Shown: positions 29,602-34,463 of the stretch, in pieces | Layout of the letters: the number at the start of each line of letters is the position of its first letter | How positions within the stretch are numbered: position 1 is the first letter of the stretch | Notes under the pieces: generated by a model | What the model saw: only the letters and a program-made list of their open reading frames with translations | What the model was told of the DNA's origin: nothing | Databases searched by the model: none | NCBI GenBank assembly: GCA_012728895.1 | Contig: JAAYEG010000058.1 | Span: 1-34,463 of the forward strand | DNA from: Methanospirillum sp. | GTDB lineage: Archaea > Halobacteriota > Methanomicrobia > Methanomicrobiales > Methanospirillaceae | DNA: 34,463 nt | Direction of reading: 5' to 3' | Translations under genes and position numbers: made by a program

Positions 29602-31104
29602 TCACTTCCCGATAGCGATCCTCTTGGCCATGATACATCGTCCACCGCGCCGCCCGCCGAGCGGGAACTTGGGCTTGCCGAGCGAGAGCATGCACCGCCC
29701 CATCAGCGCCGCACCCCGGGCGAGCCCATCGTCGACGAAGACCAGATGGTCGTTCGCGCCGTCCGGAAAGAGGCACATCTCCTCGAGCCCCGCGAGGATG
29801 TACTCGGGTTTCCGACCCGAGATCGCTGCCCTCCCGGTGAACCCGATCGAGGCGTTCGGCGGGACCATGCCCCGCTCGGCCGAGATCCTGATCATGCGGA
29901 GCGCCATCTCCGTGCAGACACGGTCCACGACCTCGTTGAGCGTCGCGATCCCGTGGACACGGTGGCAGTCCCGCCCGATCTCCTCCAGGGCGGGCACGGA
30001 CGAACCGTTCACCCCTGCGTCGCAGCCGATCAGCACGATCCCCGACGCCTCGGCGACATCGGCGCAGAGCGGTACCCGGCCGAAGCGCGACCGGTCGGAA
30101 GGCACCACGCGGATATCGATCTCCTGGTGACAGCGGTGGACGTACTCCTCCACGACACGCCTGTTCGTTCTGCTGGCGAGCTTGCCGAGAACGGTCCGGT
30201 CCGAGAAGAGGTCGAGCGCGGTCCCGGTCTTCGGCTGGACGAGCCCTGTCCCGCGTACGATCGCATCCGGGATCGCGCCCGCGAGCCCGGCAAAGTTGCC
30301 GATCGTCTTGGCGAAAGGGACATCGTCCGCATCGTCCACGTCCGACGTGATCCGGCCGTCGAGCGTCGTGCCGAAGTCGATCGAGATGCACGGGTTCCGG
30401 AAGTCAACCGGGGTCCATTTCGCTCCCTCCTTGATCCCGGCCATCGCGAGCTCGCCCTCCATCTCGTTCGCGACCATCTCGACCCCCGTGGAGCCGACCG
30501 GGGGCAGGACGCCCGCAACGGCCCCGACAAAGACCACCTTGTCCGCGAACGAGTGGGGCTGGAGCTTCGCAGACAGGTTTCCCTTCGACATCGGGGGCGT
30601 CATCTTCCGGGGAGGGACCCCCGCCTCGAGGCAGCCGTTCGCGAGCGCTATCACGAAGTCGCCGACCTGGTCGGGTGAGTCCATTGCTGCGACCACCCCC
30701 GTAGAGCGGACCACGAAGTCAAGGTCGTCCTGGATCGAGAGCCCCGCCTCACGGTGGCACTGGACCAGGGTGTCCCGGACCAGATCCGTGACGGACTCGC
30801 GGGTCAGCTCGGTCCCGTCGAGTGTCTCTCCGAAGACCTGCTCGCCCGGCTTCGGGGGCCGGACATCCCGGCTCATCGAGACCGTCTTGTTGATGACGTA
30901 GCTCCGTCCGGTCTCCAGGCTCGTTCCGGTCAGGATGCACTTCGTGGTTGTGTTTCCCATCTCGACCGAGGCCACGATGAAGTACGGCTTGGTCCGGTAC
31001 TCGGGGACCTCCATCCCGGCCCCGAGGCGTATGGAGGGGGGCGGAACGCTCTCGACGATATGAGGTTTTGGGCGAAAATAACGGGAAAAAAAGCGGGCGC
31101 TCAT
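29602..31104 (-). CDS. Methanogenesis marker protein 14
   Basis: The 500-residue product matches the methanogen-specific marker 14 family. It has an actin/Hsp70-like ASKHA phosphate loop, VASVEMGNTTTKCILTG (about 44-60), a second glycine-threonine loop CISIDFGTTLDGRI (about 239-252), and VLIGCDAGVNGSS and FVDDGLARGAALMG further on. This resembles activators of corrinoid or radical enzymes (RACo-like), so an ATP-dependent activation role in methanogenesis is plausible but unproven. The ATG at 31104 begins MSARFFSRYF, as family members do, and lies about 32 nt from a TATA box. The small gene downstream is cotranscribed. Confidence 0.9.
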   Translation of the reverse strand: MSARFFSRYFRPKPHIVESVPPPSIRLGAGMEVPEYRTKPYFIVASVEMGNTTTKCILTGTSLETGRSYVINKTVSMSRDVRPPKPGEQVFGETLDGTELTRESVTDLVRDTLVQCHREAGLSIQDDLDFVVRSTGVVAAMDSPDQVGDFVIALANGCLEAGVPPRKMTPPMSKGNLSAKLQPHSFADKVVFVGAVAGVLPPVGSTGVEMVANEMEGELAMAGIKEGAKWTPVDFRNPCISIDFGTTLDGRITSDVDDADDVPFAKTIGNFAGLAGAIPDAIVRGTGLVQPKTGTALDLFSDRTVLGKLASRTNRRVVEEYVHRCHQEIDIRVVPSDRSRFGRVPLCADVAEASGIVLIGCDAGVNGSSVPALEEIGRDCHRVHGIATLNEVVDRVCTEMALRMIRISAERGMVPPNASIGFTGRAAISGRKPEYILAGLEEMCLFPDGANDHLVFVDDGLARGAALMGRCMLSLGKPKFPLGGRRGGRCIMAKRIAIGK

Positions 31105-31140: not shown

Positions 31141-31323
31141 TCGTTAGCGGTTCCCGGGGAGGAAACGGGATTTCGAGCGGATAAACCACTCCATCCCGGC
31201 TGATTTCCGTGGATGCCGTTTTCCTGCGCGAAGAGCCCCCCCCGCATTTCCCAACATAGAAATAACGGAAAGGGCAATTACATACAACCGACCGGGGCGG
31301 ACGCCAGGGCGGAGAGGTCACGG

Positions 31324-31551
31324 ATGAGGGAGCGGATCCGGCGGATCAACCTTCAGCGGCAGATGCTGACCCTGATCACCTCGAAACCGGGGTGCACGAT
31401 CCAGGATCTGTTCGAGGCGTATCGCGAGACTCACCGTGCGTGGGAGATCCGGTATCACCTCCAGTGGCTCGTCCGTCAGGGAGTGGTTGCCCTACGCCAG
31501 GGCCCCCGGGCGATCCACTGTTACCCGACCGGGAAGCGACTCGCGACCTAG
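31324..31551 (+). CDS. Small winged-helix DNA-binding protein
   Basis: The 75-residue basic protein reads as a single winged helix. NLQRQMLTLITSKPGCTIQDLF forms helices 1-2, ETHRAWEIRYHLQWLVRQGVV the recognition helix and turn, and VALRQGPRAIHCYPTGKRL the wing. Such one-domain proteins are transcription regulators. The ATG at 31324 is preceded by GGAGAGGTCA and a TTACATAC TATA candidate (31277-31284). It is divergent from the marker-14 operon and converges on the carotenoid operon with a shared CTAG, so it may regulate one of them; that is inference. Confidence 0.75.
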   Translation: MRERIRRINLQRQMLTLITSKPGCTIQDLFEAYRETHRAWEIRYHLQWLVRQGVVALRQGPRAIHCYPTGKRLAT

Positions 31552-32414
31552 AACCCCCCTTTTGCGACAGACACGGCTGTGAAGACAAGCCCCCCGAGCG
31601 CGGTGTTGATAGCCGGGAGTCGCCAGTAGGCCCTATCGATCGGGATCTCCCTGTCGAGCAGGAGCAGTGCGGGAACGACCGGGTAGGCCAGCACGAGGAG
31701 GCTCAGAGGACGGACGTCGCTGGCCAGGATCACGATGAGGGAGAGGCACGACCAGAAGACGAGGCAGAGACAGAGCGAACGCTCCCGGCCCAGGAAGACC
31801 GCCGTCGTCGTGATCCCGGCGGCCCTGTCGCACTCGATGTCGGGCACGGCGGAGAAGAGGTGCATGGCGGCGACGTGAAAGAAGGCCCCGAGGAGGAGCC
31901 AGGCGGGAGGCCAGTTTCCCGAGGCGAGCAGGTACCCGTACACGCCGGGCATCGCGTACAGGACGTTCGAGGCGAAGTCGAGGAACGGGAGGCGCTTGAA
32001 CCTGAGCGGGGGTGCAGAGTAGGAGGCGGAGAGGAAGAGGAAGCCGGCCAGGACGAGAGCGAGGCGGGAGTCCGGCACGGCCGACGCGAGGAGCACCGTG
32101 CAGGCGAGCGAGAACCCGATCAGCAGGACGAGCCTGTCCCTGTCCGGGACCGAGTAGCGGTACTCCCGGCATTCTTTTTTCGGGTTCTGCCGGTCGGTGT
32201 CCTGGTCGAAGAGGTCGTTGACGCCATAGATGAAGAGGTTCGCGGGAAAAAAGAAGTAGAGCAGGGCGGCCATGTACGCCGGCATCAGGAACGCGTGCCA
32301 GTCCGGCATGCCGAGCGCGAACCCGACGACGTACGTCCCGCCCGTGTAGATCCAGAACAGGGGGCGGGAGAGGCGGCACGCGTAGGCGAGGAGCCCCCCG
32401 CGCGCCGGGGTCAT
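31548..32414 (-). CDS. UbiA-family prenyltransferase, lycopene elongase-like
   Basis: The 288-residue membrane protein has about eight hydrophobic segments and the two Asp-rich prenyl-diphosphate sites: NLFIYGVNDLFDQDTDRQNP (about 59-78) and FSAVPDIECDRAAGITTTAV (about 187-206). The NDLFD-x-D-x-D-x-x-NPKK form is like the haloarchaeal/actinobacterial lycopene elongase (LyeJ/CrtEb), which adds C5 units to lycopene to give C45/C50 carotenoids. Other UbiA enzymes, such as DGGGP synthase or heme O synthase, have different contexts. Its ATG overlaps the crtB stop as ATGA, placing it as the third carotenoid gene. The function is an inference from motif and operon. Confidence 0.78.
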   Translation of the reverse strand: MTPARGGLLAYACRLSRPLFWIYTGGTYVVGFALGMPDWHAFLMPAYMAALLYFFFPANLFIYGVNDLFDQDTDRQNPKKECREYRYSVPDRDRLVLLIGFSLACTVLLASAVPDSRLALVLAGFLFLSASYSAPPLRFKRLPFLDFASNVLYAMPGVYGYLLASGNWPPAWLLLGAFFHVAAMHLFSAVPDIECDRAAGITTTAVFLGRERSLCLCLVFWSCLSLIVILASDVRPLSLLVLAYPVVPALLLLDREIPIDRAYWRLPAINTALGGLVFTAVSVAKGGF

Positions 32415-33247
32415 TCCGTGGGACGGACCGTGTTCGCGGCGAGGTGCGAGACGATCCTGGGGACGGAGGGACGGACCTTTCTGTTGAAGATCACGAACGG
32501 GTCGCGCTCGATCTGCCGGGCGGTCCAGCCGTACATGTCGGAGGCGGTCATGATGGGCAACCGCATGCGCCAGGGGATGAACCGGTATCCCCGCTCCCCG
32601 GCGGAATGCCACGAGCGGTACCTGTCGCACTGCGCGTGTATGAACGCGCGGAAGGCCGATGGGTGTCGCCGGAGGAACCCCTCGTCCAGGGAGTCGAGCC
32701 CGAAGCGGTCGAGCTCCTCCCGGGGCATGTAGATCCGCCCCATCCCGGCGTCCTCGGCGATGTCCCTGACGAAGTTGATGTACTGCATCGCCCGACCCAG
32801 ACGGCACGCGGCCGGGTGGCTGGCGTCGTCGAGGCCCATCAGGCGGGACATCATCAGCCCGACCACCTCGGCCGACCCGTGGAGGTAACCCCGCAGGTCG
32901 TTCATGGTCCGGTACTCCCGGACAGAGAGGTCCATCTCCATCGACCGGAGAAAGGCATCCACCCAGGCCTGCTCGAACCCGCACCGCCGCTGGAGGTCGA
33001 CGAACCCGTCGATGACCGGATCGCCGGAGGAGGTCGCCCCGAGGACCGCCCGGTAGTCTCTGACGAAGGCGTGGAACTCCGTCTCGCGCTGCGGCACCGA
33101 ATCGACGAGGTCGTCGGCGGTGCGGACGAACGAGTACAGGGTGAAGACATCCGCCTTCACGGATGGAGGGAAGAAGAGGCTCGAGTAGAAGTAGGTCCGC
33201 GAACCCCGCCTGAAGATCTCGTAGATGGTCTGGTCGATAACGGTCAT
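32411..33247 (-). CDS. crtB: Phytoene/squalene synthase
   Basis: The 278-residue protein condenses two prenyl diphosphates head to head. The first Asp-rich site is TADDLVDS (43-50) and the second QYINFVRDIAEDAGMGRIYM (155-174), with the conserved SRTYFYSS motif (16-23). Since the neighbours are a phytoene desaturase and a lycopene-elongase-like protein, the product is probably phytoene rather than squalene. It is coupled on both sides by ATGA overlaps with crtI and the UbiA gene. Confidence 0.9.
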   Translation of the reverse strand: MTVIDQTIYEIFRRGSRTYFYSSLFFPPSVKADVFTLYSFVRTADDLVDSVPQRETEFHAFVRDYRAVLGATSSGDPVIDGFVDLQRRCGFEQAWVDAFLRSMEMDLSVREYRTMNDLRGYLHGSAEVVGLMMSRLMGLDDASHPAACRLGRAMQYINFVRDIAEDAGMGRIYMPREELDRFGLDSLDEGFLRRHPSAFRAFIHAQCDRYRSWHSAGERGYRFIPWRMRLPIMTASDMYGWTARQIERDPFVIFNRKVRPSVPRIVSHLAANTVRPTE

Positions 33248-34373
33248 CGGCCGGCCCGCTGCTCCTGAATGATCTCCTTCACGACGATCTGAGACGAGAT
33301 CAGGGTCATCGGCACGCCGATCCCGGGGTGCGTGTAGTGGCCCGAGTAGTAGAGGTTCGAGACCTTCCTGCTCCGGTGGGCAGGGCGCCAGAGCGCGGTC
33401 TGGAGGAGCGTGTGCGAGAGGCCGAGCGCCGTCCCCCGGTAGGCGTTGTAACGGTCGGCGAAGTCCTGGAACGCGAAGCAGCGCTCCGAGACGATGGCGT
33501 CGCGGATCGGCTCTTCTATCGTCGCCTCCAGGTGGTCGAGGAGGTGGTCGCGGAGCTGCTGCCGCCGGTCCGGCGTGTCCGGCAGGCCCGGGGCCAGGGG
33601 GACCAGAACGAAGAGAGTCTCTCCACCCGGCGGGGCGGCGGTCGTGTCGGTCTTTGACGGGACGTTGACGTAGTACGAAGGACTCTCCGGCCACGCTGCC
33701 TTCTCCGGGTCGAAGAGGATGTCGAAGCCGCTCTCCCAGTCCTTTTCGAGCAGGAGCGTGTGGTGCGCGAGCCCCTCGACCTTCCGGTTCAGCCCGAGGT
33801 AGAGGACCAACGCTGACGGGGCGAGTATTCGCTTCGACCAGTAGTCCTCGTCGTACGTCCTGTGGGCGTCCTCCAGGAGGGAGAGCTCGGCGTGCGGTAA
33901 TCGGCGTTGATGAGGACGGTGTCGGCGGGGTACACTCCCAACGTCGTCTCGACGGCGACGGCACTGCCGTCCTCGACCCGGATGCGGGTCGCCGGCTCGT
34001 TGAACCGGAACTCGGCCCCGTACCCGGCGGCCAGGGAACGCACGCCCTCCACGACGGCCCGTATACCACCCTCGGGATAGAAGACCCCCATCGTCAGATC
34101 GATATGCGACATGATATGGTAGAGGGCCGGCGTGTTCGAGGGTGCCCTCCCGAGGAACCCTATCGAGTACTGGACGATCTTCTTCGCCTCGTCGCTCTCG
34201 AAATACCGGTCGACGAAGTGGTCCAGGCGCTCGAAGACGTGGAGGAGGCGGGGGCCCTGGAATGGGAGACGGCCTGAGACGAAGTCGAGGACCGACCGGT
34301 ACTCGCGGTACAGCAGGTCGCCGATGGCGAGGTTATAGAGAATAGCGACAAACCCCAGCTCACCTTTATCCAC
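33244..34373 (-). pseudogene. crtI: Phytoene desaturase (CrtI), frameshifted and 5'-truncated
   Basis: Two frames together make the C-terminal two-thirds of a CrtI-type FAD enzyme. The upstream frame has QYSIGFLGRAPSNTPALYHI, then FYPEGGIRAVVEGV and TVLINADYR. The next residues, HAELSLLEDAHRTYDEDYW, continue in another frame. One missing C in the CC run at 33896-33897 (minus strand) explains the shift, since CCC would restore Y-P-H. The downstream frame has VLYLGLNRKVEGLAHHTL and SNLYYSGHYTHPGIGVPM, the CrtI C-terminal flavin motif, and then runs to the stop at 33244. The N-terminal Rossmann FAD motif is missing: family similarity ends near 34367 and a transposase gene starts at 34394. The frameshift could be a sequencing error; the loss of the N-terminus cannot. 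Confidence 0.82.
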
Positions 34374-34393
34374 TCTTCGATCGATCTTTCTGG

Positions 34394-34463
34394 ATGAGCA
34401 CGTTCGGGAACTTTTTTCTCCACCAGGAGTATGCGTCCATCGCCGCCCGTGGTGACCCTCTCA
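34394..34463 (+). mobile_element. IS5-type transposase, N-terminal fragment at the window edge
   Basis: The plus-strand frame from ATG 34394 is open to the right edge and reads MSTFGNFFLHQEYASIAARG followed by DPL. It resembles the opening of archaeal IS5-family transposases (hydrophobic FF-L-x-x-E-Y, then a short helix and GD-x-L). Only 23 residues are visible and the terminal inverted repeat cannot be confirmed. It starts head-to-head about 27 bp from the last recognisable crtI codon, as expected for an insertion inside that gene. Confidence 0.5.

Follow-up and report, generated by a model that had tools for sequence, protein, structure and literature searches.

A predicted C50 carotenoid operon with a disrupted desaturase gene in Methanospirillum sp.

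The window analysed here (34,463 nt, the entire contig C52 of an 80-contig draft genome of Methanospirillum sp.) terminates within a carotenoid gene cluster that, judged from sequence, is probably a methanogen's operon for C50 carotenoids of the bacterioruberin type whose desaturase gene has been put out of action. In this contig, genes for a desaturase (crtI), a phytoene synthase (crtB) and a UbiA-family prenyltransferase (ubiA) follow one another on the minus strand, while a gene for a CruF-like protein and the start of crtI lie at the end of a second contig, C49. The original prediction of a haloarchaeal-type C45/C50 route is supported by trees of UbiA and CrtB and by the adjoining CruF-like gene on C49, and its suspicion that the pathway is present but damaged was borne out by an IS5 insertion and a frameshift in crtI.

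The locus and its interruption

The features of the locus are as follows (window coordinates unless stated otherwise).

29602-31104: methanogenesis marker 14 (599 bits versus a cut-off of 274)
31213-31551, plus strand: small ORF convergent with ubiA, winged-helix-like by eye (phmmer over the loci)
31548-32414, minus strand: ubiA, LyeJ/CrtEb-type (lycopene-elongase) prenyltransferase, 288 aa (PF01040, 92 bits; motif NDLFDQDTDRQNPKK)
32411-33247, minus strand: crtB, phytoene synthase, 278 aa (PF00494, 207 bits; placed by tree and translation)
33244-34337, minus strand: 3' part of crtI, predicted CrtID-type desaturase, pseudogene (best match NF058655; congener alignment)
33896-33897, minus strand: frameshift in crtI from the loss of one base, seen against three congeners (column 831, the only gap in the nucleotide alignment)
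34334-34337: TATA, one copy of a 4-bp target duplication (second copy at the IS edge on C49)
34338-34463, plus strand: end of an IS5-family element within crtI, running off the contig end (multi-copy; IS5/DDE_Tnp_1 matches)
Contig C49, 200-593, minus strand: 5' part of crtI, with its start codon at C49:593

The consecutive order of the three genes and the ATGA overlaps at both of their junctions (33247-33244 for crtI/crtB and 32414-32411 for crtB/ubiA) were confirmed, as was the lycopene-elongase form of the Asp-rich motif in UbiA, which reads NDLFDQDTDRQNPKK as originally described. By contrast, the GTG at 34373, where the feature had been taken to end, is not a start codon, and everything beyond 34337 is insertion sequence. 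The match of crtB to PF00494 had an E-value of 3e-61 in a genome-wide profile search, and the gene order is repeated in some 30 related genomes, which together argue that the crt gene set is not a product of chance. The small ORF at 31213-31551 overlaps the ubiA stop codon, and its position is kept in four congeneric genomes (G213, G214, G216 and G218). A search of NCBIfam gave no match for this ORF, which could be a candidate small regulator.

The upstream half of the locus lies outside the window and was found through a genome-wide Pfam search, which turned up the N-terminal fragment of an amine oxidase where C49 ends. Read in the direction of the crt genes, C49 carries genes for mevalonate kinase, isopentenyl phosphate kinase, IDI-2, RNase J, GGPP synthase and glutamyl-tRNA synthetase (gltX), all six named by eye; gltX is followed by the CruF-like protein (246 aa) and then by the first 131 codons of crtI. 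Since GGPP synthase, gltX, cruF, crtI, crtB and ubiA form a single run in the congeners G216 and G218, C49 and C52 are two parts of a single locus. In order of transcription, the unit is cruF-crtI-crtB-lyeJ, with crtI recently inactivated.

The two contigs meet in a mobile element. The genome contains the last 123 nt of C52 seven times at near full length, and three of these copies, the window's own included, are identical; the 199 nt at the end of C49 match six places. A continuous IS copy of ~1.13 kb on C39 matches both contig ends. Two ORF pieces of this copy resemble transposases of the IS5 family (NF033581, 61 and 29 bits versus a cut-off of 140) and of DDE_Tnp_1 (23.2 versus a cut-off of 23). 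The element's termini are imperfect inverted repeats (GAGGATAGC/GAGAATAGC) with TATA at both sides, so that the insertion reads GAACTC-TATA-[GAGGATAGC ... GCTATTCTC]-TATA-ACCTCG, a 4-bp duplication; the transposase is encoded on the plus strand, opposite to crtI. When the IS and one TATA are removed, crtI aligns over ~1484 nt with the genes of three congeners with a single gap of one base. Apart from the break, the gene contains no stop codons, and its pN/pS versus the congeners is 0.22-0.27, which together make the loss of crtI look recent.

Contigs C49, C51, C52, C56, C60, C12 and C78 all end inside copies of one IS5-like element, which thus contributes to the fragmentation of the assembly and could also disrupt genes elsewhere. 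A further UbiA-family gene (G000:C64:66115-66745; L005, L006) is split between two frames, suggesting that single-base errors may exist in the assembly.

It is conceivable, but improbable, that the break in crtI is a mixed-strain or assembly artefact and that the organism's crtI is intact: this would fit a draft of 80 contigs in which the locus is divided over two, and a single-base gap is a common type of error, the UbiA gene on C64 being frame-split likewise. Against this, both contig ends enter one multi-copy IS, the 4-bp duplicates at its two edges match, and the reconstructed empty site is in frame. The call of an IS insertion is, moreover, independent of single-base accuracy, whereas an error in sequencing could account for the missing base. 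An insertion into crtI therefore remains the preferred explanation of the break.

Identity of the encoded proteins

UbiA scored 324 bits for NF009516 (cut-off 205). In a tree of 72 proteins it fell within a 53-member LyeJ/CrtEb clade (support 99/96), which it shares with haloarchaeal LyeJ-type proteins whose genes adjoin crtI and cruF, and with a CrtEb-like protein from an Arthrobacter crtB/crtI cluster; several long branches leave the deep joins of this tree unsure, though the clade of the window's protein is independent of them. Outside the clade lie the DGGGPS-like paralogues, one of which is encoded on C75 of this genome. Members of the clade carry the motif YG(V/I/F)ND..D...D..N, mostly followed by PKK, versus NRP.RP or NAPDRP in the DGGGPS-like group. 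Tree and motifs thus place the protein with LyeJ/CrtEb and speak against a DGGGP synthase, a menaquinone enzyme or other UbiA classes. Methanogen UbiA proteins form their own clade separate from haloarchaeal LyeJ, and their exact product could therefore differ.

CrtB was the sole member of the SQS_PSY family found in a Pfam search of the genome. Its tree places it on the phytoene-synthase side of a branch with 99/92 support, together with haloarchaeal, Pantoea, Thermus and Arthrobacter sequences and a CrtM, with the squalene-pathway proteins HpnC and HpnD on the opposite side, which speaks against a squalene synthase. That the locus is no carotenoid operon at all, with UbiA acting as a DGGGP synthase or quinone enzyme and CrtB as a squalene synthase, is accordingly very hard to credit. 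In NCBIfam, CrtB does score highest against HpnD, yet at 140 bits the match falls short of the cut-off of 279, and the trees, the motifs and the separate DGGGPS-like paralogue on C75 all speak for carotenoid enzymes, as does the position of the order's SQS_PSY protein, which sits in the crt cluster at every locus examined.

The broken CrtI of the window could be scored in pieces only, and every piece matched best to NF058655 (bifunctional phytoene/3,4-desaturase, CrtID); the intact CrtI proteins of two relatives scored 664 and 673 versus its cut-off of 640. In Haloarcula japonica, CrtI-type enzymes perform both desaturations (PMC11946383), so that no separate CrtD would be required. Other matches to the amine-oxidase family in the genome (on C4, C57 and C60) were considered as a second CrtI/CrtD and set aside as not CrtI-like by eye.

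The CruF-like protein matched Pfam Caroten_synth with 141 bits and fell under the equivalog cut-offs (TIGR03460, 127.6 versus 154.7; NF041333, 90.8 versus 300). The CruF proteins of the relatives tested were also under the cut-offs (113-128 for TIGR03460). The exact CruF reaction is consequently less certain, both here and in these relatives.

Distribution of the cluster

Phytoene synthase was found in 35 of the 232 genomes of the order; all 35 also encode a CruF-family protein, and 34 of them UbiA. The crt genes of these carriers are nearly always adjacent and mostly intact. At 33 of the 34 loci from other genomes, cruF, crtI, crtB and ubiA occur together (with cruF truncated in G214), in one of two arrangements, with cruF either first or last. 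The crtI gene is a single open frame at 32 of the 34 loci; that of G213 is fragmented by many frameshifts. Named carriers include Methanoculleus sediminis and Methanocalculus chunghsingensis, both with an intact cluster, as well as Methanogenium marinum and a Methanofollis MAG. The ubiA of Methanogenium marinum DSM 15558 is frameshifted, lying in two frames (L087, 7908-8725; L177, 7998-8833), which may reflect a broken elongase or a sequence error. In G049 (L095, 8097-9196), the start of cruF adjoins the end of ubiA with neither crtI nor crtB present, as if a deletion had taken out the middle of the cluster.

The truncated cruF of G214 is a second copy, and it lies beside a photolyase-like ORF upstream of the crt cluster (L066, 2032-3390 and 4473-4880). 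G214 was considered as another case of cruF damage, but since it has a full cruF on C27 it was not counted as a loss. Among the loci, a photolyase of this kind beside the cluster was seen in G214 only. Across the order, DNA photolyases occur in 16 of the 35 carriers and in 61 of the 197 other genomes (p = 0.12), giving no support for a link between the cluster and light protection.

Outside the order, crtI-crtB-ubiA was found in the methanogens Methanosalsum, Methanolobus, Methanobacteriaceae, Methanofastidiosum (with crtI in three frames) and Methanomassiliicoccales, as well as in records of Caldarchaeum, Borrarchaeum, Woesearchaeota, Patescibacteria and Pyrobaculum, and at least part of the set in Bathyarchaeota, Heimdallarchaeota and nanohaloarchaeal records; many of these records are MAGs, and individual taxon assignments may be wrong. 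The initial view of carotenoids as no typical methanogen trait thus needs qualifying as to rarity, given 35 of the 232 genomes of the order and carriers in several other orders. That the cluster is patchily distributed and in places broken suggests that it was lost repeatedly, with transfer as the alternative.

The predicted pathway and its relation to known systems

From family membership and by analogy with the Haloarcula pathway, the following order of steps can be proposed. GGPP would be supplied by the GGPP synthase encoded upstream, and CrtB would join two GGPP into phytoene. CrtI, a predicted bifunctional enzyme of CrtID type, would convert phytoene to lycopene and later desaturate at the 3,4 positions; the LyeJ-type UbiA would extend both ends by C5 prenyl units, giving C45 and then C50; and the CruF-like hydratase would add water in the last step to bacterioruberin. 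In this genome, with the IS in crtI and the missing base, the chain would halt at colourless phytoene. The substrates and the identity of the product, like a role in the membrane or as an antioxidant and the loss of pigment, are what we infer from these assignments. Because the hydroxyl groups would derive from water via hydratases, oxygen would in principle not be needed.

A different carotenoid is a less probable outcome, though one to be taken seriously: UbiA might add a single C5 unit only (C45) or yield a flavuxanthin-like C50 product, with the CruF-like protein acting on another substrate. The separation of the methanogen UbiA clade from haloarchaeal LyeJ and the sub-cut-off CruF scores are compatible with this, as are the many archaea outside the order in which crtI-crtB-ubiA occurs without cruF in the stretch examined. 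On the other hand, the intact CrtI relatives exceed the cut-off for bifunctional CrtID, and cruF is present alongside the cluster in every one of the carrier genomes of the order. A bacterioruberin-type pathway is thus the reading we favour.

The same carotenoid genes are found together in haloarchaea, in which they serve to make red C50 pigments. The bacterioruberin genes of Haloarcula japonica are c0507 (CrtI/CrtD), c0506 (LyeJ) and c0505 (CruF) (PMC11946383). Like the methanogen, this species has adjacent genes, with a LyeJ-type UbiA, a CruF-like hydratase and a phytoene synthase, and its CrtI is of the bifunctional type that is predicted for the methanogen. In the methanogen the genes are ordered differently, crtB lying between crtI and ubiA; its proteins fall in clades of their own, its CruF is under the cut-off, its crtI is broken and its product is a predicted one. 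An actinobacterial C50 cluster (on an Arthrobacter plasmid, L180) shares CrtB, CrtI and a CrtEb-like UbiA in one cluster, but its UbiA is much more distant and the set includes no cruF within the stretch examined. Bacterioruberin genes beyond haloarchaea have also been reported, from genomes only, for Lake Baikal Patescibacteria (lyeJ, crtD and cruF; PMC9948471); those are bacterial and mostly unlinked, whereas the methanogen set is a conserved archaeal cluster.

For methanogens themselves, Klassen 2010 included CrtB and CrtI in carotenoid trees, in the lineage of haloarchaea and C50 Actinobacteria, in passages that name no lycopene elongase, CruF or C50 product for them (PMC2889829). A 2022 review gives methanogen carotenoids as 'unknown' (PMC9410494), a 2019 review describes carotenoid studies as limited to haloarchaea and a few Sulfolobales (PMC6770870), and a Methanothrix study did not find the complete bacterioruberin set (PMC9128505). 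Neither a C50 gene set nor a C50 product turned up for methanogens in the open-licence literature, and the locus represents an already known kind of pathway in organisms for which that literature yielded no description.

More broadly, we regard it as an even chance that many strictly anaerobic archaea, in several methanogen orders and in further lineages, make acyclic C50 carotenoids via an oxygen-independent bacterioruberin pathway, such that the haloarchaeal version would be one branch of a widespread and repeatedly lost archaeal trait, lost here by transposon. Since cultured methanogens carry the conserved set of four genes, whether they make pigments can be tested directly. If methanogens do make such pigments, C50 carotenoids would become candidates for regulating the membranes of strict anaerobes, carotenoid biomarkers could come from a wider range of organisms, and the result would bear on the origin of the haloarchaeal pigment pathway.
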